This document shows, piece after piece, positions 2,100-33,370 of a stretch of 33,847 nucleotides of DNA (position 1 is its first letter; every line of letters begins with the position of its first letter). Made by a program: the position numbers and the translations under genes. The DNA is from Deltaproteobacteria bacterium (GTDB lineage Bacteria; Desulfobacterota; Desulfarculia; Adiutricales; Adiutricaceae): positions 1-33,847 of the forward strand of contig JAIRTO010000180.1 in the NCBI GenBank assembly GCA_031254895.1, written 5' to 3'. Under the pieces are notes generated by a model, which was not told the DNA's origin, did no database searches, and saw nothing but the letters and a program-made list of their open reading frames with translations.

Positions 2100-2522
2100 C
2101 AACTATTTGACGGAGGCGTTTCCGGGTGGACTGGACGCTCTATTTTAAAGTCAACGAAAAGCTTATTAAAAGTTGTCCCTGGAATTGCTTTGACCATCAT
2201 TTTTATTTAAGACTTTTTTATTTTAAAAGATAGGCTATATTTGAAACATAATTGGAAACGAACATAAACAGCAAATAAAGAAATGCGCATTCTCGTCATC
2301 GGAGGCGAGGATGCGTCAATGAGGATGGGTCAACGAAGATTTGTCAACGAGGATGAGTCAACATTGATCTTTCCTTTTTGGGATCGAAAACGGCCTTGAT
2401 TTCGCGAGGCCAAAAAGACGGAAAGCGAATCCGTAATTTTTCCAGGCCTCTGGCGTAGACGAGAATGATTTCGAACCTGCTTTGGCCTGACCAGATAGCG
2501 TCATTTTAAGGGAGATGGTTTC
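2100..2522 (+). other. Long gene-free leader of rplK
   Basis: No convincing gene was found here. The first half is AT-rich with several T and A runs. The second half holds four 14-bp tandem repeats (2307-2362). The rplK Shine-Dalgarno GGGAGA sits at the end. In many bacteria L1 represses the rplK-rplA mRNA through a leader site, but I could not identify a convincing L1-binding structure by eye. Confidence 0.5.
2307..2362 (+). repeat. Four tandem 14-bp repeats in the rplK leader
   Basis: The units are GAGGATGCGTCAAT, GAGGATGGGTCAAC, GAAGATTTGTCAAC and GAGGATGAGTCAAC, abutting with no spacer. The consensus is GAGGATGNGTCAAC. They lie about 160 bp upstream of the rplK start, inside the predicted leader RNA. 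The differences between units suggest an old duplication. Confidence 0.88.
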
Positions 2523-8800: not shown

Positions 8801-10066
8801 CACATCATGGAGAAAAACACCCAGGCCAAACTCTCCGAGTATTTGGTCGGGAAAACTCTGGCCACCAACGTCGTCGACGAGAAAGGCCAAACAATCCTCA
8901 AAAAGAAGGACGCCGTGACGCAGGAGCATGTCGACTCCCTGCCTCCCGACGTCTGGCGCAAGGTCAAATTCAACGAAGACAAGGCCGGCGCGCTGTCCGT
9001 CGAGGTGGAGAATCTCGTTTCCTACTACAAGGAGCAGGTGGAGATCATCCGCCAGGTCTTCGAGAGGAAGAAGGGCAAGCTGCAGAAAGGCGACGAACTG
9101 CCTCCGGGCGTCATCAAGATGGTCAAGGTCTACGTGGCCATGAAGCGCAAGCTGTCGGTGGGCGACAAGATGGCCGGACGTCACGGCAACAAGGGCGTCG
9201 TCAGCCGCATCCTGCCCGAAGAGGACATGCCTTTCTTCGAAGACGGCGTCCCCGTGGACATCGTCTTGAATCCTCTGGGCGTGCCCAGCCGCATGAACGT
9301 GGGCCAGATCCTGGAGACTCATCTTGGCTGGGCCAGCCGCACCTTGGGCCAGCAGATAGGCGCCTTGGTCGACAGCCTCAACCAAGCCTCTCTGCGGGTC
9401 AAGCTGCGGGAAACGCTGGGCGACCGCGATTACGGCAAGTTCTGCGAGTCCTTGTCCGACGACGAGCTGTTTGAACTGGCCAACCGCAGCCGCCGAGGGC
9501 TGCATATGGCCACCCCCGTCTTCGACGGGGCCAGAGAGTCGGAAATCAGGGAAGTCCTTCGCGAAGCCGGTCTCCCGGAAATCGGCCAGGCCAGACTCCG
9601 AGACGGCCGCACGGGCGAAAAGTTCGACAACGACGTCACCGTGGGCATCATGTACATGCTCAAGCTGCACCATCTGGTCGACGACAAGATCCATGCCCGG
9701 TCCATCGGCCCGTATTCTCTCGTCACTCAGCAGCCCTTGGGCGGCAAAGCCCAGTTCGGCGGCCAGAGGTTGGGGGAGATGGAGGTTTGGGCCATGGAAG
9801 CTTACGGCGCCGCCTACAGTCTTCAGGAGTTCCTGACCGTCAAGAGCGACGACGTGGCCGGCCGCGCCCGCATGTACGAAAAGATCGTCAAGGGCGACAA
9901 CGTTCTGGAAGCGGGACTGCCCGAAAGCTTCAACGTTCTGGTCAAGGAGCTGCAGTCGCTGTGCTTGGACGTCGAATTGATCGAAAACGAGTCCGAGGCC
10001 GAGACCGACGAGACGGCTCCGGCCTTGCCGACGCCTGAGGCTTCTTCGGCCGAACAGGCCGTCTGA
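5846..10066 (+). CDS. rpoB: RNA polymerase beta subunit
   Basis: The 1406-residue beta subunit starts at TTG, with AGAGGAGG at 5831-5838 and seven bases of spacing. Protein (M)[15 protein letters not shown] leads into [15 protein letters not shown], as expected. The rifampicin-site segment (about residues 529-560) contains Asp537, His547 and Ser552, equivalent to E. coli D516, H526 and S531, all in the sensitive-type state. [15 protein letters not shown] and the C-terminal [25 protein letters not shown]-type block (here with AMEAYG) are present. The last 25 or so residues are an acidic, Pro/Ala-rich tail, which partly explains a length above the E. coli 1342. rpoC follows after 246 bp. Confidence 0.98.
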
Positions 10067-10099
10067 GACTGCCGTCTGAGACTGCCGTCCGAGACTGCT
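10061..10099 (+). repeat. Three tandem 13-bp repeats across the rpoB stop
   Basis: GTCTGAGACTGCC occurs at 10061-10073 and again at 10074-10086, then GTCCGAGACTGCT at 10087-10099. The rpoB stop TGA (10064-10066) lies inside the first copy, so the repeat arose from the end of the gene. The third copy has two changes. Confidence 0.9.
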
Positions 10100-14992: not shown

Positions 14993-15077
14993 GGCGAGCG
15001 AGCGAGAGGGGAGGCGAGCGAGAGGGGAGCGAGCGAGAGGAGAGGCGAGCGTGAGGAGAGGCGAGCGAGAGAGCGGC
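14993..15077 (+). repeat. GA-rich tandem repeat of about 15-16 bp units
   Basis: About five imperfect units based on GGCGAGCGAGAGGGGA follow each other with small length differences. The + strand is almost entirely G, A and C. It sits just after the rpoC terminator. A purine-rich strand like this can adopt unusual structures, but nothing here shows function. Confidence 0.85.
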
Positions 15078-15463
15078 GGAGAAAGGGCCGCGATGCCGTC
15101 AAAGACGCCAAGTCCTTGTCAAGTCAAGTAGTTTGGGGGTTAATTGACTTGGCTTATTTTTTCGGGCATAACTAGAGAATGTTTGGGCTGACGTGGTCTT
15201 GGCCGGAAAACGTCAGGCAGCTTTCTCGCCGTTAGGCGAATATGGCCGCTTCGTCAGGGGACGCCAAAACGATCAGCTTCATGACGCCCTTTTTTTGGAG
15301 ACGAGAGCCCGTTCGATTTAGTTTTGGCGGCGGAACCGAAAAAGGCCCAAAAATAGCCGACGCGGAAGGTAGGCCAAAATCGTCGTCTTTTTTGCCAAAG
15401 CGGGCCTTTTTCGCGACCAGACGCGCGGTTTTTTTTCGTCGTCAAAAGATCCGGAGGCGCGGA
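15078..15463 (+). other. Gene-free leader of the lipoprotein gene
   Basis: No gene is evident. A candidate promoter sits at 15144-15172. The lipoprotein reading frame is open upstream to 15242, but that extension is Arg/Phe-rich and lacks a Shine-Dalgarno. The true gene start is 15464, where GGAGG precedes ATG. Confidence 0.5.
15144..15172 (+). promoter_or_regulatory. Possible sigma-70 promoter for the lipoprotein gene
   Basis: TTGACT (15144-15149) and CATAAC (15167-15172, 4 of 6 consensus) are 17 bases apart. It lies downstream of the rpoC terminator in a locally AT-richer patch. The gene start is about 290 bases downstream. Confidence 0.4.
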
Positions 15464-17574: not shown

Positions 17575-19212
17575 ATGATCAAACGGGTTGTCATAATTTT
17601 GTTTGGCTTCGCCGCCCTTTCAGCGGGAGTCGGTCTTAGTCCGGTTGCGGCGGAAGCGGAGGAGGGAGCCCCGGAAGCTCTCCTTGGCGAGGCCTATGCT
17701 TCGGGAGAGCCGGCTTCTCCGGATTTCAGCGCCATTTTGGCTCTGCACCGTCCGGCGGCCGAAAAGGGGAGCGCGTTCGCTCAGTTTTGTCTGGGCCACC
17801 TCTATTCTCTTGGGATCGGAGTTCCGGAAGATTCCGTCGAAGCCTTCAAATGGTTTCGTCTGGCGGCGGAACAAGGCTTCGCCGAAGCCCAGCTCGCTCT
17901 GGGGGCAGCCTATTACGTCGGCGAAGGAACGGAGCAGAATTATTCGGAAGCGGTGAAGTGGCATATTTTGGCCGCCGACCAAGGAAACGTCAAAGCCAGC
18001 AACATGCTTGGCTATATGCATTATTTCGGCGAAGGAGTCGAGCCGGACGTCTTCGAAGCGGTCAGGCGCTTCAGGCTCCCCGCCGAACATGGAGACTCCG
18101 CCGCCCGTTTTTTCCTTGGCCAGGCGCATTTTACCGGACTCGGCGCGGAGCAGGATTATGCCGAAGCCCTAAGATGGTTTCTCCTGGCGGCTGAGCGAGG
18201 CGACTTTGACGCTCAACTGCAACTGGGGAAGATGTATTACTTCGGCCAAGGGACGGAACAGAATTATCCGGAAGCTTTAAAGTGGCTTCTGTTGGCCGCC
18301 GAACGAGGGGTCGCGGAAGCGCAGAAAATGCTGGGAAACATGTATCAGATTGGCGAAGGGGTCGTCCGGAACGAAGCGGAATCGCTCAAATGGACTCATA
18401 TGGCCGCCTCTCAAGGCGATGCCGAGGCCCAGCACAATCTTGGTCTTGCCCTCATGTCCCATTTGCCGCAGGATCGCGGACAAGCGCTGGACTGGCTTCG
18501 CCGGGCCGCCTACCAAGGACACGCCGACGCCCAGGCGACTCTCGGCGATTTTTTGTCCGTCGGCCCCGCAGGTCGCCGCAGTTATGCCGAAGCCTTCAAA
18601 TGGTACAGTTTGGCGGCCGAACAGGGACGTCCCTCCGCCCAGAGAAGTCTGGCCGCCATGTATCGCAACGGGAAAGGCGTCGTTCGTGATTTTGCGGAAG
18701 CCGCCAGGTGGAATCGTCTGGCCGCAGAGCAAGGAGACGTCTATTCTCAGGTTGAACTCGGGAAAGCGTACTCCGCCGGCATAGGGGTGGAACGGGATTA
18801 CGCCGAAGCGATCAAGTGGTTTGAACTGGCCGCCGAGCAAGGCTCTTCCGCCGCTCAGTTGGCTCTTGGTCGGATGAGCGCCGAAGGGAAAGGAAAAGTT
18901 AGAGATTTTTCCGAAGCCGCCAAATGGTACAGATTGGCCGCCGCGCAAAGCGAGCCGGACGCTCAGTTCGAACTCGCCGAAGCGTATGCCAAAGGTCTGG
19001 GCGTCGAGAGAAATGAGGCCGAAGCGTTCAAATGGTACAGAGAGGCGGGCGCGCGTTGGAACGTCATGGCCGAGTTCAAAGTTTGTCAAATGCTCCACGA
19101 AGGAGAAGGAGTAGAGCAAGATGATGCGGAAGCCGGGAAATGGTGCGGCTACGCCGTCAAAAACGCTCTCTCCTATTTGCTGGATTTGCCGAGGCACGTA
19201 ATTTACCGCTAA
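17575..19212 (+). CDS. Exported Sel1-repeat protein
   Basis: This 545-residue protein has a signal peptide (MIKRVVIILFGFAALSAG, likely cleaved after PVAAEA) followed by about 13 Sel1-like repeats of roughly 36 residues. Each has the pattern A-x-A-Q-x-x-L-G-x-x-Y-x-x-G-x-G-V-x-x-x-x-x-E-A-x-K-W-x-x-x-A-A-E-Q-G. Such helical solenoids mediate protein-protein contacts in the periplasm or outside the cell, sometimes with hosts or cell-envelope enzymes. No catalytic domain is visible. AAAGGAG lies nine bases before ATG. One repeat (about residues 297-330) is irregular. Its partner cannot be inferred from the neighbours. Confidence 0.85.
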   Translation: MIKRVVIILFGFAALSAGVGLSPVAAEAEEGAPEALLGEAYASGEPASPDFSAILALHRPAAEKGSAFAQFCLGHLYSLGIGVPEDSVEAFKWFRLAAEQGFAEAQLALGAAYYVGEGTEQNYSEAVKWHILAADQGNVKASNMLGYMHYFGEGVEPDVFEAVRRFRLPAEHGDSAARFFLGQAHFTGLGAEQDYAEALRWFLLAAERGDFDAQLQLGKMYYFGQGTEQNYPEALKWLLLAAERGVAEAQKMLGNMYQIGEGVVRNEAESLKWTHMAASQGDAEAQHNLGLALMSHLPQDRGQALDWLRRAAYQGHADAQATLGDFLSVGPAGRRSYAEAFKWYSLAAEQGRPSAQRSLAAMYRNGKGVVRDFAEAARWNRLAAEQGDVYSQVELGKAYSAGIGVERDYAEAIKWFELAAEQGSSAAQLALGRMSAEGKGKVRDFSEAAKWYRLAAAQSEPDAQFELAEAYAKGLGVERNEAEAFKWYREAGARWNVMAEFKVCQMLHEGEGVEQDDAEAGKWCGYAVKNALSYLLDLPRHVIYR

Positions 19213-21798: not shown

Positions 21799-22959
21799 AT
21801 GTCGATGGATCATCTGCGTCCCTTTCCTCCTGAAGAGCTGGAGGCCCGTTTGGCGCGTCTGCGGTTGGTCATGGCCGAACGCGGCTTGGATGCGGCTGTC
21901 GTCGTCGGCCCGGAGAACATCTACTATCTGACCGGCGTGGATCATTACGGCTATTTTTTTCAGTATTACCTGCTCGTCCCCCTCGAGGGCCAGCCGGTTC
22001 TGATCTGCCGCCGAATGGAGCAGGTGACCATGGACATAATGCTGCAAGGCGTCCGTTTCCATGGGCATCTGGATCATGAGCGCCCGGCCGATTACCTGAT
22101 CGAGGACGTCAAGGCGCTGGGGCTTGAGCGGGGCCGCATAGGTCTGGAGAAGCAGACGCTGTTCGGACCTTTGGAGAATTTCGAGATAATCTTCCAGGGT
22201 CTTCCCCAGGTCGAGTGGCGGAACTTCTCCGAGGCGGTCGACGAACTCCGGCGGGTCAAATCGCCTCTGGAACTGGACTACGTCCGACGGGCGGCCGCCG
22301 TCAGCGTCGCCATGACTAGAGCGGCCGTAGACGCCTGCCGAGCCGGGGCGGCCGAAAACGAAATCGCCGCCGCCGCCTGTTCGGCCATGTGTTCTCAGGG
22401 AGGCGCCTGGCCGGGCTTTCCGCCCTTCGTCCGCTCCACTCCCACCATGGGCATGGAGCACGGCGGCTGAACCACCCGTCGCCTGGAGAAGAAGGACGCG
22501 TTGTTTCTCGAACTGAGCGGCTGCTTCAAGCACTATCACGCCCCTATGGGTCGCCTGATCTTCGTCGGCGAAAAGCCCAAGGAAGCCGATTTCATCGCTA
22601 AAGCGACCATCGACGCCTTCAAGGCCGTGGTCGAAAACCTCAAGGACGGCCTCACCGCCGCCGAAGTGTACGAGAAATGGCAGGCCGTGGTCGACGAAGC
22701 GGGCTTGTCCCATTACACGCGCCACCATTGCGGCTACCTGGTGGGCATCGGCTTTCCGCCCGCCTGGACCGGCGGCAGCCGCGTGGTCGGGCTGCGACGC
22801 TACAGCGACATGACGCTGAAGAAGGGCATGACCTTTCACGTCCTGTCCTGGCTGGTGGGCAGCGGCCGGGGAGACTACCTGGTGACCAACGCCGCCGCTG
22901 TCGGCGAGGACTGCGGCGAGAACTTGATCGATTTCCCGATGGAACCGATCGTCAAATAG
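21799..22959 (+). pseudogene. Creatinase-fold (M24 family) hydrolase interrupted by an in-frame TGA
   Basis: One reading frame encodes a 386-residue M24/creatinase-like protein except for TGA at 22468-22470 (codon 224). Before the stop: a creatinase N-terminal domain (LARLRLVMAERGLDAAVVV, ENIYYLTGVDHYGYFF). After it: the pita-bread fold (FLELSGCFKHYHAPMGR, HYTRHHCGYLVGIGFPPAW, MTFHVLSWLVG). The two Asp that bind metal in true M24 peptidases appear replaced (LELSG, HAPMGR), as in metal-independent creatinase or ectoine-hydrolase-like members that split C-N bonds in small molecules. The stop may be a TGG-to-TGA mutation. Readthrough or selenocysteine are less likely alternatives. AAGGAG precedes ATG 21799. 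It leads the operon ahead of the TRAP genes. Confidence 0.7.
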
Positions 22960-23038
22960 AGCTGGCGTCGCCGCCGACAGGCGAGCGACGCCTCCGCGAC
23001 GGCGAGAACTGGAGCGATTCCCCGATGGGGCCGATCGC
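22915..23038 (+). repeat. Degenerate duplication of the M24 gene's 3' end
   Basis: Bases 22915-22952, inside the last codons of the M24 gene, recur at 23001-23038 with 32 of 38 identical and no gaps, starting GGCGAGAACT and including CCCGATGG and CCGATCG. The offset is 86 bp, not a multiple of three, so the second copy is a non-coding relic. Confidence 0.8.
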
Positions 23039-23164
23039 AAAGGGAACGGGCGTCGTCGTCGAATAAATTTTTGGCGGCGCATCTGATCTGGCCCGCGCCG
23101 AAACCGGCGCGGCGCCTCCGCGTCCGTCTTCGCTGTTTCGCATCTTCAGTCAAAGGAGTTCATC

Positions 23165-24172
23165 ATGAGAAAGTTGTTCGGTCTGGCCGCCATGCTGGCC
23201 TGCTTCTGTTTGGCCTTTTCCGGCCAATCCGCCTCGGCCGCCGACGAGATCAGGCTGCGGCTGTCCTGTCCTGTGGCCACCAAAGGATCCTTCATGGGCG
23301 ATTCGATCGAATTGTGGAAAAAGCTCATTGAGGAGAAATCAGGCGGCCGCATCAAGATTTCCCTGCATTATTCCGGCGAGCTGGGCTCCGAGGGCGAAAC
23401 CTTCGACCAGCACTACAAAGGCACGGTTCCCTTGCTGCTGACCTACTCGACCACCAGATACAGCGAAAAGCTCGGCCTGCTGTCCACGCCCTATCTTTTC
23501 GACGACTGGAACGACGTGCGCGAAGCCTTCGCGCCCGACGGCTGGATGACCGAAGTCTACGGAAAGATCTACGAAGAGGTCGGACTCAAGTTTCTGGCTC
23601 CCTATCCAGGGGGCTTCGGCGGAGTGGACACCAAAGGCAAATACGCCACCAACATCGCCTCCGCCCGGGAGCAAGGCATCAAGGTTCGCTGCGCGGCCAT
23701 CTTCCCCTTGGCCGAGACCATGCAAGCCTTGGGCTACCAGGTCATACCCGTGGACTGGAACGAGACCTACACCGCCATCCAGACCGGGCTGGTGGACGGC
23801 AGCTCCAACAACCCCATCTTCTGGACCTACGACACCTTCCGGGATCTTCTGGAATATTTCGTCGACACCAGCCACACCTTCTCTTCGGCCGACATGACCA
23901 TGAACCTCGACGCCTGGAACAAGCTCAGCCCCGAGGATCAGAAGATCATCTTGGATTCGGCTCTGGAGGTGGCGGCCAAGCAGTTCGAGGACGCGGAAAA
24001 GACCGACTTGCATTACCGCCAGCTTTCCATTGATCACGGCATCAAGTACATCAAGCCTACGCCGGAGGAAATCGCCGAAATGAAGAAGGTCTGCCAGGAG
24101 CAGATCTGGCCGTTGGTGGAAAAGGTGGTCGGCGCCGAACTCATGGCTCTGGTTCGCGCCAACTCCAAATGA
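23165..24172 (+). CDS. dctP: TRAP transporter solute-binding protein (DctP family)
   Basis: This 335-residue protein has a clear signal peptide (MRKLFGLAAMLACFCLAFSG, cleaved after ASA near residue 25) and is periplasmic. The DctP fold is recognisable from ELWKKLIEEKSGGRIKISLHYSGELG, the region around GIKVRCAAIFPLAETMQALGYQVIPVDWNETYTAIQTGLVDG (about residues 175-216), and LSPEDQKIILDSA. The Arg in KVRCA aligns with the Arg that usually binds the ligand carboxylate, so the substrate is probably a carboxylate. AAAGGAG precedes ATG. A hairpin separates it from dctQ, suggesting higher expression of the binding protein. Confidence 0.95.
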   Translation: MRKLFGLAAMLACFCLAFSGQSASAADEIRLRLSCPVATKGSFMGDSIELWKKLIEEKSGGRIKISLHYSGELGSEGETFDQHYKGTVPLLLTYSTTRYSEKLGLLSTPYLFDDWNDVREAFAPDGWMTEVYGKIYEEVGLKFLAPYPGGFGGVDTKGKYATNIASAREQGIKVRCAAIFPLAETMQALGYQVIPVDWNETYTAIQTGLVDGSSNNPIFWTYDTFRDLLEYFVDTSHTFSSADMTMNLDAWNKLSPEDQKIILDSALEVAAKQFEDAEKTDLHYRQLSIDHGIKYIKPTPEEIAEMKKVCQEQIWPLVEKVVGAELMALVRANSK

Positions 24173-24192
24173 AAGAAACGTGTTGAAGCCCC

Positions 24193-24224
24193 CCCAAGGA
24201 GGACGCGTCCGCCTCCTCCTTGGG
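24193..24224 (+). other. Hairpin between dctP and dctQ
   Basis: CCCAAGGAGGA (24193-24203) pairs perfectly with TCCTCCTTGGG (24214-24224), an 11-bp stem with a ten-base loop and no T tract. Such structures after binding-protein genes commonly stabilise the upstream mRNA or reduce readthrough. The 5' arm contains an AAGGAGG that would be hidden from ribosomes. Confidence 0.65.
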
Positions 24225-24271
24225 AACCCGTCCCGGGAGAGTCGCCGGGGCTTCAAAGGGAGGTCGAATCC

Positions 24272-24826
24272 ATGCTGGACAAACTTCTGCGCCTCTTCGA
24301 ACGTCTCGATTCCCGTCTGGTCAAAGTTCAGAGACTCATGGCCATCGCCTTCGGTCTGGTCATGAGCTTGGGCATGACTGCGGCCATCGTCTCCCGGCAG
24401 TTCTTCAAAAATCCCCTCCTGGGGATGGAGGAGATCGTCGTGGTCAGCGGTTTCTGGTTCTACATGACCGGGGTTGCCTTGGCCGCCTCCGAGCGTTCGC
24501 ACTTGCGGGTGGAGGTTATTCCCATGGTCGTCCGGAACAGGCGGGCGGTGGCCGTCATCGAGGTCTTGACGTCCGTTCTGGCCTTGTTTCTGGCCGGATT
24601 CATCCTCTACTGGTGCTTCGATCTGTTGGCCTGGTCGATCGAGAAGAGAGACATTCTGCCGGCCACCAAATTGCCGTCGTACGTTCCCCAAAGCTCCTTT
24701 CCCCTGGCCATGGGGCTGTTGACGCTGTATTTCGCGAGAGATCTGCTGCGGGACGTCAGGAATCTGAGCGACGCCTTCAGGGGCCGCGCCCCGGAGACGT
24801 CGGCTAGGGAAGGAGAAGGCGCATGA
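24272..24826 (+). CDS. dctQ: TRAP transporter small membrane subunit (DctQ family)
   Basis: This 184-residue protein has four predicted membrane segments (roughly residues 23-43, 55-73, 92-114 and 138-156). It carries the DctQ signature of a Glu-rich loop before the second span (NPLLGMEEIVVVSGFWFYMTGVALAASERSHLRVEVI). It pairs with DctM to form the sodium-coupled permease. AAAGGGAGG precedes ATG. Its TGA overlaps the dctM start (ATGA), a sign of translational coupling. The Arg/Glu-rich tail after residue 160 is cytoplasmic. Confidence 0.93.
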   Translation: MLDKLLRLFERLDSRLVKVQRLMAIAFGLVMSLGMTAAIVSRQFFKNPLLGMEEIVVVSGFWFYMTGVALAASERSHLRVEVIPMVVRNRRAVAVIEVLTSVLALFLAGFILYWCFDLLAWSIEKRDILPATKLPSYVPQSSFPLAMGLLTLYFARDLLRDVRNLSDAFRGRAPETSAREGEGA

Positions 24827-26127
24827 CCGCCGTTATAGGCTTCGCTCTTTTGATCGCGCTGATGATTCTCGGGCTGCCCATCGCCTTTTCCTTCGCGGCG
24901 GCCACTTTCTTCATGGCCCTGTCTTACGGCATAGACATCTCCATGGTCATAACCACCGGCTTCTGGTCGCTCAACTCCGTCATTCTCCTGGCCCTGCCCC
25001 TTTTCATCATGGGCGGCTATCTGATGGAAAAAGGCGGCTTGGCCGACAATCTGGTCAATTTCGTCTGCGCTTACGTCGGCCGGATCCGGGGCGGCCTCGG
25101 CGCCTCCATGGTGGTGACCTCGGCCATTTTCGGAGCCATCTCCGGCTCGTCTTCGGCCGCCATCGCCTCCATCGGCACCGTCATGATCCCGCCCATGGAA
25201 AAGATGGGCTATCCCAGGCCTTACTCCAGCGCCATCTGCAGCGCCTCCTCGGTTTTGGGCCTGCTTATCCCTCCCAGTCTGACCATGCTCGTCTTCGCCC
25301 TGGTCACCAGGCTGTCGGTGGCCGCCTGCTTCATCTCCACCCTGGTTCCGGGCCTCCTTCTGGCCGCCTGCTACATCGGGGTGAATCACTTCATGGTCAG
25401 GCGACTGAACATCGCTCCGCCCGAAACGGCGAAGCTGGATTTCCGGGACAGCGCCAGGGCCAAGGCCAAGGCGACTTTCAAGGCCGTTCCTGCCCTGATG
25501 CTGCCGGTGATAATTCTGGGCGGCATCTACGGCGGCGTCTTCACGCCCACCGAAGCGGCGGCCGTGGCTTTCTGCTACGCCCTGCCGGTGGGTTTCTTCA
25601 TCTACAGGGGACTGTCGAAGGCCGTCTTCTGTCAGGCCATGAGCGAAGCGGCGGCCACGACCGGCTCGGTCGTCGTCATCCTGATGTTCTCCTTCGCCCT
25701 GAGCCGCATCATGACCATGGAAGGCGTCCCTCACGCCCTGGCCCAGTTCCTGCTGGACACCTTCCGCAGTCCGGCGCTGATCCTCCTGGTCGTCAACGTC
25801 ATGCTCATCTTCATGGGCATGCTCATCGACGACATGAGCGTCACGGCCATCATGTCGCCCATGCTGCTGCCGGCGATGATGGAGATCGGAGTCCATCCCT
25901 TTCATTTCGCGGCCATCATCGGAACCAACACCATCATCGGCTTCAATTCGCCGCCTGTGGCCTTCGGCCTGTATATGGCCTGCCGCATCGGCAAGGTCAA
26001 GATGCATGAAATAGTTGGCCCCATCATGTATTTTTTGCTGTTCGCCTGCATTCCGGTGATGCTGGCGACCACCTACTGGCCCAAGCTGTCGATGTGGCTG
26101 CCGGATCTTTTGGGCTACGTCAAATGA
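24823..26127 (+). CDS. dctM: TRAP transporter large permease (DctM family)
   Basis: This 434-residue, very hydrophobic protein has about a dozen membrane segments and the DctM family features: ILGLPIAFSFAAATFF, LPLFIMGGYLMEKGGLA, the conserved FGAISGSSSAAIASIGTVMIP (about residues 104-124) and GVFTPTEAAAVAFCYAL (about 232-248). It is the transport subunit of the TRAP system with DctP and DctQ, using a sodium gradient. It overlaps dctQ by four bases. Its stop lies inside the ribosome-binding segment of the serine dehydratase gene. Confidence 0.96.
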   Translation: MTAVIGFALLIALMILGLPIAFSFAAATFFMALSYGIDISMVITTGFWSLNSVILLALPLFIMGGYLMEKGGLADNLVNFVCAYVGRIRGGLGASMVVTSAIFGAISGSSSAAIASIGTVMIPPMEKMGYPRPYSSAICSASSVLGLLIPPSLTMLVFALVTRLSVAACFISTLVPGLLLAACYIGVNHFMVRRLNIAPPETAKLDFRDSARAKAKATFKAVPALMLPVIILGGIYGGVFTPTEAAAVAFCYALPVGFFIYRGLSKAVFCQAMSEAAATTGSVVVILMFSFALSRIMTMEGVPHALAQFLLDTFRSPALILLVVNVMLIFMGMLIDDMSVTAIMSPMLLPAMMEIGVHPFHFAAIIGTNTIIGFNSPPVAFGLYMACRIGKVKMHEIVGPIMYFLLFACIPVMLATTYWPKLSMWLPDLLGYVK

Positions 26128-26138
26128 AGGAGGTCGAC

Positions 26139-27710
26139 GTGAGGAATTCCAGCATTTTCAACGAGGTGTTCGGACCGGTCATGGTCGGTCCCTCCAGTTC
26201 GCACACGGCCGGTCCGGCCAGGATCGGCAAGATGTGCCGACAGGCTCTGCCGGACGAGCCGGAGAAGATCGACGTGAGCTTCGACCGACGAGGCTCCTTC
26301 GCCGCCACCTACGTCGCCCAAGGCTCAAATTACGGTTTCGTCGGCGGAATCCTGGGCCGGGACATCGGCGACGAGAACATCAAGCATAGCCTTTCGGAAG
26401 CCCGGGAAAAAGGGGTGTCGTGCCGCTTCAACGTCGTCGATCTTCCCGGCGACAATCATCCCAACTTCGCCGTCATCGAAATCACCGCCAGAAACGGCTT
26501 CAAGCTTGAGGCGGAGGCGGCCTCCACCGGCGGAGGAATGTTCGAGATCAGTCGTCTGATGGGCCGGGAGGTCTCTCTGAAGGGCGACCTTCACGAGTTT
26601 CTGCTTTTCGAGGAGCCGGCCGAGGGAGCGGCCGAGGCGGTCCGCCGTTTTATGGGCGAGAAGAAAGTGGCCTGTCTTCTCCGTCAATCCCCCGGTCTTC
26701 TGAACGTCAAGACCGACGAGGCCCCGGAAGGTCTGAAGGAAGGCCTGGAAGCCGTTCTGGGTCGCCGGGTGACCCATCTGCTCCCGGCTCTGCCGGTGGT
26801 CAAACGGCTGGATGGGAGACCGCCGTTCGACGACGCCGCCGGGGCGTTGGCGAGCGCCGAGCGCGAGGGGGTGAACGAGCCTTGGCGGCTGGCGGCGGCC
26901 TATGAATCCGCCTTGAGCGGAAAGGACGAACAGGAAATCCTTAGCATGATGGCCTCCCTCGCTAAGGTGATGAGGCGGGCGGCCGAAAGGGGTTTGGCCG
27001 GCGACTACCGGCCTCGGGGCTTTCTGCCTCCCCAGAGCCCGAAGATGCGTCAGGCGGTCGAGAGCGGACGGGTTCGTCAGCTCGATCTCGGGGTTCTGAA
27101 CAGGGCCGCCCTTTGGGCTTGCGCGGCGCTGGACTACGACATCTGTCTGGGGGTGGTCGCCGCCGCGCCGACCGGAGGCTCCAGCGGGGTTCTGCCAGGC
27201 GCGGTGATCGCCGTCGGCGAGGACCTCGGTCTCGGCGAGGACGAGATAGTCAAGGCTCTTCTGGTCGGCGGTCTGGTGGGCGTCTTCATCGACCACCAGG
27301 CCACCTTTGCCGCCGAGACGGCCGCCTGTCAGGCGGAAATAGGCGCGGCCAGCGCCATGGCCGGAGCGGCGGCGGTTCAGCTCTTGGGCGGAACCCCGGA
27401 GCAGGCTTTCAGGGCCGCCGCCTTGTCGCTGCAAAACATGCTGGGGCTGATCTGCGACCCCGTGGCCGGGGTGGGCAACGTTCCCTGCGTCAGCAGAAAC
27501 GCCGCCGGCGCGGCCAACGCTCTGGTCTCGGCCAATATGGTCATGGCCGGCTTTGACCCCTGTCTGCCTCTGGACGAGGTCATCCAGGCCATGATGAGCG
27601 TGGGCGGCATGCTGCCGGCCGAATTGCGCTGCACCGGCCGGGGCGGATTGTGCCTCAGTCCGACGGCTCGGAAAATAAGCCGAGAACTCGATTTGACCCC
27701 GGCGCTCTGA
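26139..27710 (+). CDS. sdaA: L-serine dehydratase, iron-sulfur type, single chain
   Basis: This 523-residue protein joins the beta domain (GPSSSHTAGP, residues 17-26) to the catalytic alpha domain (APTGGSSGVLPG; GLICDPVAGVGNVPCVSRN). The family converts L-serine to pyruvate and ammonia using a 4Fe-4S cluster. Cys397, Cys439 and Cys450 match the three cluster cysteines, with the family's 11-residue spacing between the last two. The protein ends in PAL, not Cys, so a C-terminal Cys ligand like that reported in a Legionella homolog is absent. AAGGAGG (26127-26133) supports GTG 26139 over an ATG at 26124 that lies within this site. It is in the operon between dctM and the M20 gene. Substrate in vivo could be a serine analogue. 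Confidence 0.9.
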   Translation: MRNSSIFNEVFGPVMVGPSSSHTAGPARIGKMCRQALPDEPEKIDVSFDRRGSFAATYVAQGSNYGFVGGILGRDIGDENIKHSLSEAREKGVSCRFNVVDLPGDNHPNFAVIEITARNGFKLEAEAASTGGGMFEISRLMGREVSLKGDLHEFLLFEEPAEGAAEAVRRFMGEKKVACLLRQSPGLLNVKTDEAPEGLKEGLEAVLGRRVTHLLPALPVVKRLDGRPPFDDAAGALASAEREGVNEPWRLAAAYESALSGKDEQEILSMMASLAKVMRRAAERGLAGDYRPRGFLPPQSPKMRQAVESGRVRQLDLGVLNRAALWACAALDYDICLGVVAAAPTGGSSGVLPGAVIAVGEDLGLGEDEIVKALLVGGLVGVFIDHQATFAAETAACQAEIGAASAMAGAAAVQLLGGTPEQAFRAAALSLQNMLGLICDPVAGVGNVPCVSRNAAGAANALVSANMVMAGFDPCLPLDEVIQAMMSVGGMLPAELRCTGRGGLCLSPTARKISRELDLTPAL

Positions 27711-27811
27711 GAGCTGTCGACTAATCGCGTCCCCAGGGCCGGGACGGATCGCGTCTCGGCCGGACGGCTCGGAGAATGAGTCGAGAAATTTATTTGACCC
27801 TGGCGTTCTGA
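27662..27811 (+). repeat. Degenerate duplication of the serine dehydratase 3' end
   Basis: The last 49 bases of the gene, including its TGA (27662-27710), recur at 27763-27811 with 41 of 49 identical and no gaps; most changes are transitions. The offset is 101 bp. The second copy lies just before the M20 gene and cannot extend the dehydratase frame. Confidence 0.88.
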
Positions 27812-27832
27812 ACTCTTCCCACAGGATGAACC

Positions 27833-29092
27833 ATGACCCTATATGCTGATTTGGACGAAGCCGTGGACGAATTGGCCGAAAAAATCGTCGAATGCGCCAG
27901 GGAGATTCTCCGGCGTCCCTCTCTTTCCGGCGGCGAAGCCGAAGCCCAACGCCACGTCGGCGGTCTGATGGAATCGCTTCGGGCCGACCGCGTCGACCGC
28001 TGGGAGCCGGATATCGAGGAATTGGTCAGGCACCCGGCCTTCGTGTCCGGCCGCAGCAGCTTCGTCGGCAGTCCCAACGTGGCCGGGCTCTGGAGAGGAA
28101 CCGGCGACGGGCGAAGCCTGATCCTTTGCAGCCACATCGACGTCGTTCCCGAAGGCGATCCGGCTGAATGGACTCATCCGCCCTTCGCAGGCGAAGTGTC
28201 CGACGGCGTGATCTACGGACGCGGGGCTTCCGACATGAAGGCCACCATGGCCGCCATGTTCGGGGCGATCGAGGTCGTCCGCGCCTTGGGGTTGAAGCTG
28301 CGCGGAGATCTGACCGTCCTGAGCGTCGTCGAGGAGGAGACCGGCAGCGCCGGAGCCTTGTCGGCGGTCCTCCGAGGCTACCGGGCCGACGCGGCCATCC
28401 TGCCCGAGCCCACCGGCTTCGCCGTCTGCCCGGCGCAGCAGGGCGGCGCCCGTTTCCGGGTGGTCGTGAAAGGCAAGTCCGCCCACGCCGGCCAGCGCCA
28501 TCTCGGGGTCAGCGCCGTGGAGAAGACGGATCTGGTGAGGGCGGGGCTGGTCAAGTACGAAGCTCATTTGAACGAGAAGTACAGAACCGAGCTCTACGCG
28601 CATCTGGAGACGCCGTTCACCATCAACATAGGGCTGTTTCAAAGCGGGGACTGGTTCTGCACCGTGCCGGAATCGGCCAGGCTGGAAGGACGGATGGCCG
28701 TGCCGCCGGGCTTGAGCGTCAAGGAGAGCCTGAAGAACCTCGAGTCCTTCATTCTGGCTGAAACCGAGAAAGACCCCTGGTTGCGGAGCCATCCCCCGAA
28801 GGTGGAGATATTCGACACGTATTGGGAACCGGCGCAGATGAGAAGCGATCATCCCCTGATCGATCTGGTCGGAGAGGCCTACGCCAGGCGGACCGGGCGG
28901 CCGCCGAAGGTCCACGGAACTTCCTGGGGCACGGACGGCCGCATGTTCACCGAGTTCGCCGACACTCCGTCCCTCATCTTCGGGCCGGGAGTCAGTGCCC
29001 ATTGTCCCGACGAGTTTCTGCGGGTGGACGATCTTTTGGAATACGCCAAGATGCTGACCCAGATCGTCGTCGACTGGTGCGGGGTCGATTGA
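27833..29092 (+). CDS. M20-family amidohydrolase (ArgE/DapE/acylase-like)
   Basis: This 419-residue zinc peptidase-fold protein has the expected residues: His101 in CSHIDVVP with Asp103, bridging Asp134 in GRGASDMKA, catalytic Glu168 and ligand Glu169 in VEEET, Glu192 in LPEPTG, and a C-terminal His in VSAHCPDE. The family removes acyl groups from N-acyl amino acids (ArgE, DapE, aminoacylase) or cleaves small peptides. The inserted lid domain (about 205-320) includes GKSAHAG. The distance from the preceding gene (122 bp) and the AGGATGAA site suggest co-transcription. In context it probably deacylates a product or substrate of the M24 enzyme or TRAP system; the exact substrate is unknown. Confidence 0.9.
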   Translation: MTLYADLDEAVDELAEKIVECAREILRRPSLSGGEAEAQRHVGGLMESLRADRVDRWEPDIEELVRHPAFVSGRSSFVGSPNVAGLWRGTGDGRSLILCSHIDVVPEGDPAEWTHPPFAGEVSDGVIYGRGASDMKATMAAMFGAIEVVRALGLKLRGDLTVLSVVEEETGSAGALSAVLRGYRADAAILPEPTGFAVCPAQQGGARFRVVVKGKSAHAGQRHLGVSAVEKTDLVRAGLVKYEAHLNEKYRTELYAHLETPFTINIGLFQSGDWFCTVPESARLEGRMAVPPGLSVKESLKNLESFILAETEKDPWLRSHPPKVEIFDTYWEPAQMRSDHPLIDLVGEAYARRTGRPPKVHGTSWGTDGRMFTEFADTPSLIFGPGVSAHCPDEFLRVDDLLEYAKMLTQIVVDWCGVD

Positions 29093-32935: not shown

Positions 32936-33230
32936 GTCGAACGTTTGCCGCTTTTCGTCTTCTATAGCTTTAAATTACATCTAAAGATTATAAAAAATTA
33001 AATTTATAAGTTAATTAAAATAAATATTGTATATAAAGATAAATTGTTTCTGATTTTTATTGTCAATAAACTCGCCCGAAAAAATCTTTTTTAGGCCAAC
33101 ATCCAGAAAACGGCTTGTTTTTCCTGACCGCTTTTAGTAGGATCATGTAGGAGACTTGTCGATTTCGTTTTTGGCTTGTCGGACTCGAAAAGGCGCATCG
33201 AGGGATTGTAGCCATTTTTCCAAAAACGCT

Positions 33231-33290
33231 GTTCAACGATTTTCAACTTTGCTCAACGATTTTTAACGTTGTTCAACGTTGTTCGATGAC
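33231..33290 (+). repeat. Tandem 20-bp repeats in the catalase leader
   Basis: GTTCAACGATTTTCAACTTT (33231-33250) and GCTCAACGATTTTTAACGTT (33251-33270) match at 17 of 20 bases. A shorter related unit, GTTCAACGTTGTTCGATGAC, follows at 33271-33290. Function is unknown. Confidence 0.75.
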
Positions 33291-33315
33291 GAGGATTGGC
33301 CGCTCGATTTCAGTC

Positions 33316-33370
33316 AGCCCCTTTGTGTTCGGAGCCCCTTTGTGTTCAGAGCTCTTTGTGCTCGGAGCCC
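33316..33370 (+). repeat. Tandem 17-bp repeats in the catalase leader
   Basis: AGCCCCTTTGTGTTCGG (33316-33332) and AGCCCCTTTGTGTTCAG (33333-33349) differ at one base. A 16-base variant AGCTCTTTGTGCTCGG (33350-33365) and a partial AGCCC follow. Confidence 0.88.

Follow-up and report, generated by a model that had tools for sequence, protein, structure and literature searches.

In prokaryotes, partial gene duplications and pseudogene fragments are known, in which a non-functional fragment lies beside its parent gene. The fragment described here differs from these in being exactly the tail of a gene with its stop codon, placed in tandem. The closest analogue of the pattern around it is found in the archaeal Borg elements. 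Tandem repeats in the gaps of Borg elements are pervasive, arise independently, are unique to their loci and are nearly absent from the host genomes (PMC9879509). Some Borg repeat regions have their start within an ORF end. The repeats are recent, perfect and rich in A, and ORFs contain about half of them, with unit lengths that are multiples of three (PMC9879509). In a survey of prokaryotic satellites, only 18 bacterial species exceeded 4 satellites per Mb (PMC6749651). Furthermore, abundant intergenic TAACTGA direct repeats are described in marine Beggiatoaceae, and a regulatory role was proposed for them (PMC4679880).

We analysed a stretch of 33,847 nucleotides (the window) from the metagenome-assembled genome of a Deltaproteobacteria bacterium, which is fragmented into 376 contigs (3.54 Mb in all, completeness 87.8%). 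Like the Borg elements, this genome carries locus-unique tandem repeats in its gaps. In contrast to the Borg repeats, the copies are degenerate and mostly intergenic, their unit lengths show little three-base bias, and the genome is bacterial and GC-rich. The units are not perfect and SNP-free as in Borg elements: the median is 86% matches, and the sdaA (dehydratase tail) copy has 80%. The short-unit, unique, non-coding arrays scattered over this genome also resemble prokaryotic satellites and VNTR-like minisatellites (PMC6749651). Many arrays of that survey are coding, whereas those here lie mainly in gaps, and the detection methods differ, the densities being not directly comparable (PMC6749651). 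By one method used throughout, this genome has a satellite-rich density. With so few species above the survey's 4 per Mb, such abundance is unusual but known among prokaryotes. The Beggiatoaceae genomes share the abundance of direct repeats in bacterial intergenic regions; there, one fixed 7-mer is repeated (PMC4679880), whereas here the unit changes from array to array.

Table 1. Duplicated gene tails, their neighbours and tandem arrays in the window
Feature	Position	Strand	Evidence or remark
Fused beta+alpha iron-sulfur L-serine dehydratase-like gene (SDH_beta + SDH_alpha)	26124..27710	+	Intact 3' end = copy 1
Copy 1, the source unit: final 100 bp of the gene, TGA stop included	27611..27710	+	Gapped self-alignment score 46
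Relic copy 2 of the dehydratase tail, one 1-bp indel, decayed frame, ending in the copied TGA	27713..27811	+	
21-bp remainder with AGGA ribosome-binding-like motif before the M20 gene	27812..27832	+	Sequence
M20 (ArgE/DapE-type) deacylase/peptidase, downstream gene	27833..29092	+	Pfam PF01546, E=2e-34
M24 (ectoine hydrolase-like) gene tail, source	22890..22956	+	Local alignment score 30, shuffle maximum 16
Degenerate M24 tail copy 2	22969..23041	+	Ungapped core 22914-22955 vs 23000-23041, 35/42
13-bp tandem repeat (GCCGTCTGAGACT x 3.2), third tail copy	10058..10098	+	TRF score 75
Intergenic tandem array after rpoC, 16/31-bp unit	14996..15078	.	TRF score ~120
14-bp intergenic tandem array, nusG-rplK gap	2306..2362	.	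TRF score 72
Two adjoining degenerate arrays after feoB, 10/20-bp and 17-bp units	33225..33370	.	TRF

The parent gene of the fragment is a serine dehydratase-like gene, as judged by matches to Pfam PF03313 (E=6e-62) and PF03315 (E=2e-6); the NCBIfam models sda_alpha and sda_beta stay under their curated cut-offs. Its start is uncertain, lying at 26094 in the ORF list and at 26124 according to our home-made caller. The gene behind it exceeds the cut-off of NCBIfam TIGR01910. An earlier note on this DNA had claimed that the last 49 bases of the dehydratase gene, TGA included, recur downstream without gaps at 41 of 49 positions. This was borne out (27662-27710 against 27763-27811, a shift of 101), and the match is longer than the noted 49 bases: from 27636 onwards, 60 of 75 bases agree ungapped, and with one indel the alignment extends over the units listed in Table 1. 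Copy 2 begins 0-2 bases past the first stop and finishes at the second, which leaves 21 bp to the ATG of the M20 gene. Thus, of the 122 bp between the dehydratase stop and the next ATG, 101 are a tail copy. The two copies are direct, head-to-tail, in the same orientation and 0-2 bp apart, and are therefore adjacent tandem copies. The unit is unique, with one match in the genome, and a dispersed intergenic repeat family of the REP or MITE type was ruled out by this single match. We propose that the copy is, very probably, what remains of a single local event in which about 101 bp over the 3' end of the gene were duplicated in tandem, and that it is part of a genome-wide gap process.

The locus was also compared with an orthologous one. 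A genome of another genus in the same family (G022) was the sole outgroup found; it carries the DctM-dehydratase-M20 part of the cluster described below. Its dehydratase-M20 pair (60% protein identity) is separated by a gap of 42 bp, which holds no copy. This gap ends AAGGACTCAACC-ATG, with AAGGA at a place similar to that of AGGA here. A scan of named genomes with the dehydratase gave only a distant homolog from Geosporobacter and a weak match in Clostridia. Judged from this one outgroup sequence, the duplication would have arisen in the present lineage, unless G022 deleted its copy.

Because copy 2 sits between two genes of an operon, it might have been retained for a function, as an RNA hairpin, attenuator, terminator or spacer that tunes M20 expression. 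One weak terminator-like match (27768-27785) can be cited for this idea. However, the region folds no more stably than shuffled sequences (z = -0.30), the count of terminators is inside the shuffle range, and the copy is missing from the orthologous gap of G022. No promoter-like site was found in the copy region, and an Rfam family search on the copy gave no match; a conserved RNA element was ruled out by this result together with the ordinary folding energy. We therefore regard a retained function as improbable.

The copies could also mark the junction of two divergent homologous operons joined by foreign recombination, in which case copy 2 (GRDGSRLGRTARRMSREIYLTLAF) would once have been the functional tail of another allele. 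The copies are merely 80% identical, and no ortholog of the dehydratase gene was found in the same-genus genomes searched, by which the operon may have been acquired horizontally. However, functional tails would differ chiefly at synonymous sites, and the 15 differences in 75 aligned bases are distributed 5/5/5 over the codon positions. Furthermore, 11 of 24 residues differ, where 8.7 ± 1.6 are expected under neutral mutation, and a downstream remnant of a second operon is absent. Copy 2 thus shows no protein constraint in its codon-position pattern or its residue changes, and for this reason we take it to be a relic, not a tail that once served a functional second allele; the junction is very improbable. 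Copy 1 retains GRGGLC, the counterpart of which is GGGGLC in G022 and GLGGLC in Geosporobacter, whereas copy 2 reads GRDGSR. The word relic, which the earlier note had used, is therefore supported by the even change over codon positions, the loss of conserved residues and the absence of the copy from the G022 gap. Chance similarity or an assembly artefact, the latter conceivable in a metagenome assembly of 376 contigs, is hardly credible, because the alignment scores 46 against a best score of 18 among about 5,000 random 130-bp pieces of the window, and copies that are 20% diverged cannot stem from duplicated reads of one sequence.

The dehydratase and M20 genes belong to a cluster (21805-29092) in the order M24 (DoeA-like), TRAP transporter P, Q and M, fused serine dehydratase-like and M20 deacylase; an IclR regulator on the opposite strand and a ketopantoate reductase-like gene lie nearby. 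The cluster may be an operon for the catabolism of some amino-acid derivative. The earlier note had also spoken of a second gene-tail duplication in the same operon, and this proved to be real: the tail of the M24 gene is copied behind that gene with a score of 30 (Table 1). The M24 gene (21805-22956) contains one in-frame TGA at 22468-22470, and the rest of the frame is open. The position corresponds to a Trp in DoeA of known structure (6twk), and the rest of the window uses TGA as an ordinary stop; the in-frame TGA is due to a nonsense mutation or to an error in the assembly. A third tail copy, the 13-bp repeat, starts in the last codons of rpoB and repeats the rpoB stop codon. The remaining arrays of Table 1 lie within gaps, and the one after rpoC is an example of the general gap process. 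The gap after feoB measures 628 bp here and 508 bp in the sister species. The window also encodes a Sel1/TPR-like repeat protein (17575-19212) with 36-residue units and strong internal DNA repeats; these repeats are coding and were excluded from the gap statistics.

For the genome-wide tests, we used a sample of 903 kb, about a quarter of this genome, with the window included. Genes were called by a home-made codon-usage script. The comparison genomes were the sister species (G003), a member of the same family (G029) and E. coli K-12 as an unrelated control, and array density was measured by one program (TRF) for all of them. Intergenic arrays number 993 per Mb here, 182 in G003, 134 in G029 and 33 in E. 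coli; the corresponding densities of TRF arrays overall are 416, 202, 50 and 25 per Mb. A local duplication was found in 128 of 355 gaps here (36%), 6 of 84 in G003 (7%), 15 of 186 in G029 (8%) and 1 of 98 in E. coli (1%), and in about none of the shuffles. Longer gaps give more room for arrays, yet the contrast persists at equal length: among gaps of 300-600 bp, 48% contain an array here, compared with 11% in G003, 8% in G029 and 5% in E. coli. Among the 66 sampled pieces of at least 5 kb, 63 contain arrays, and every GC class has them, which is a further argument against an assembly artefact. Their units are mostly 10-50 bp, with event sizes up to about 150 bp, and nearly all are site-specific (only 13 of 290 arrays have a match at another place in the sample). 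The identity between copies ranges from about 60 to 100%, around the median given above. Site-specific units with this range of identities are as expected from many independent duplication events spread over time.

Gene tails were then considered separately. The earlier note had proposed a genome-wide comparison of gene tails with the sequence behind them, and we aligned the 60 bases at the end of each gene with the 200 that follow, with a cut-off score of 20 or more. Tail copies were detected at 5 of 545 genes here, where shuffles predict 0.0, and at 0 of 133 genes in G003, 0 of 286 in G029 and 0 of 166 in E. coli K-12. Against the other three genomes together (0/585), the difference gives p=0.026; 2 of the 5 copies are those of the window, which had given rise to the test, and a low-complexity repeat underlies at least one (L136). 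On inspection, several top hits (L136, L045, G029 L092 and G003 L146) were rejected as low-complexity, protein-repeat or paralogous-gene matches. Thus, the excess of tail copies is real against shuffles and modest between genomes. Arrays that cross a stop codon were found at 10 of 553 genes here and 2 of 590 elsewhere (p=0.014). Further arrays of this genome, at L028 9441-9664, L132 6647-6823 and L101 6197-6248, begin inside a gene end and pass the stop, with units of 83, 88 and 17 bp, respectively. When 150 bases were compared with the next 300 (cut-off score 25 or more), local copies were found at 9.5% of gap-interior positions, 1.1% of gene tails and 1.4% of positions in coding interiors. 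Gene tails as duplication hotspots were therefore rejected, the gap interior being about 9 times richer. Gene heads show fewer such copies than tails, in small numbers.

The earlier note had suggested that gene-tail copies may show how the gaps of this genome have grown. We compared 21 gene pairs that are adjacent both here and in G003, adjusting each gap for the aligned protein ends. The gap is longer here at 19 of the 21 pairs (7,533 against 3,847 bp in total; Wilcoxon p = 4e-4). Tandem copies are present in 8 of 9 gaps that are at least 100 bp longer than in G003, and in 1 of the 12 others (p = 4e-4). Of the 3,370 excess bases, about 1,270 can be assigned to recognisable copies, a share of roughly 38% (about a third to 40%); such copies cover about 9% of gap sequence. 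For example, a 27-bp array (L119 9383-9555) fills most of the 231-bp DsbB-DsbA gap, which is 22 bp in G003. In the cluster DsbA-DsbB-LepA-adenine deaminase, other species of the genus have long gaps at some sites too: in G001, G002, G004, G005 and G006, the DsbA-DsbB gap is roughly 150-410 bp as estimated from match coordinates. The LepA-adenine deaminase gap is longest here, with 585 bp against roughly 115-230 bp in the genus by the same kind of estimate. Between rplL and rpoB, all species of the genus have a long gap (428-702 bp); with 638 bp, the gap of this genome falls within that range, and the idea that it is special was rejected. Because the copies explain part of the excess and other species of the genus are also long-gapped, tandem duplication is one contributor to gap length and not the full explanation. 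Some of the difference may stem from a compaction of G003, growth and shrinkage being only partly polarised. Thus, the suggestion of the earlier note stands for tandem duplication in general, which fills many gaps and is found in nearly all of the grown ones. It does not stand for tail copies as the source, which are minor: the arrays mostly arise inside gaps, and tail copies occur at about 1% of gene ends.

A single local tandem duplication would have shaped the dehydratase locus as follows. The duplicated unit would have ended at or just past the stop codon, so that the first copy left the dehydratase gene intact. The second copy would have fallen, untranslated, between this stop and the ribosome-binding site of the M20 gene, and the M20 gene would thereby have been displaced from about 21 to 122 bp downstream of the dehydratase stop. 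Copy 2 would then have drifted without selection on protein, a step that can be read from its substitutions. Over the whole genome, short stretches (10-50 bp, up to about 150 bp) would be duplicated in tandem and diverge, mostly in gaps, and the gaps would lengthen. Duplications that reach into genes would probably persist if the gene is left whole, and stop-spanning duplications leave the upstream gene whole, which may be why a few copies start in gene tails. If a duplication reached the start region, the gene would come to be preceded by a relic start and leader. At the molecular level, the duplications most likely arise by replication slippage or by short repeats recombining unequally. As for the repair genes, mutL and sbcD are present, and mutS is found in two non-overlapping pieces, at G000:C135:1913-3463 (model positions 324-839) and G000:C182:5007-5534 (model positions 1-176); the gene may be broken, or a break between contigs may have divided it. 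Loss of repair genes as the cause was rejected, since mutL and sbcD are present and the split of mutS may only reflect a contig break.

The dehydratase relic itself is an ordinary neutral duplication that has not yet decayed past recognition, in an unusually repeat-filled bacterial genome. It is a well-anchored example: with a duplicated stop and a known parent, the event can be dated and polarised, unlike the arrays that arise inside gaps. The density of intergenic arrays is about 5 times that of the sister species, and the growth of bacterial gaps, together with what limits it, can therefore be tested on this natural pair of genomes. Tentatively, the lineage may have a tendency of its own, still at work, to duplicate DNA locally in tandem, for instance through altered replication or repair, which lengthens the intergenic DNA relative to the sister species; this would be a bacterial counterpart of the Borg repeats, a possibility that we hold with some doubt. 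If such a tendency exists, gene-tail relics would be datable markers of its single events.
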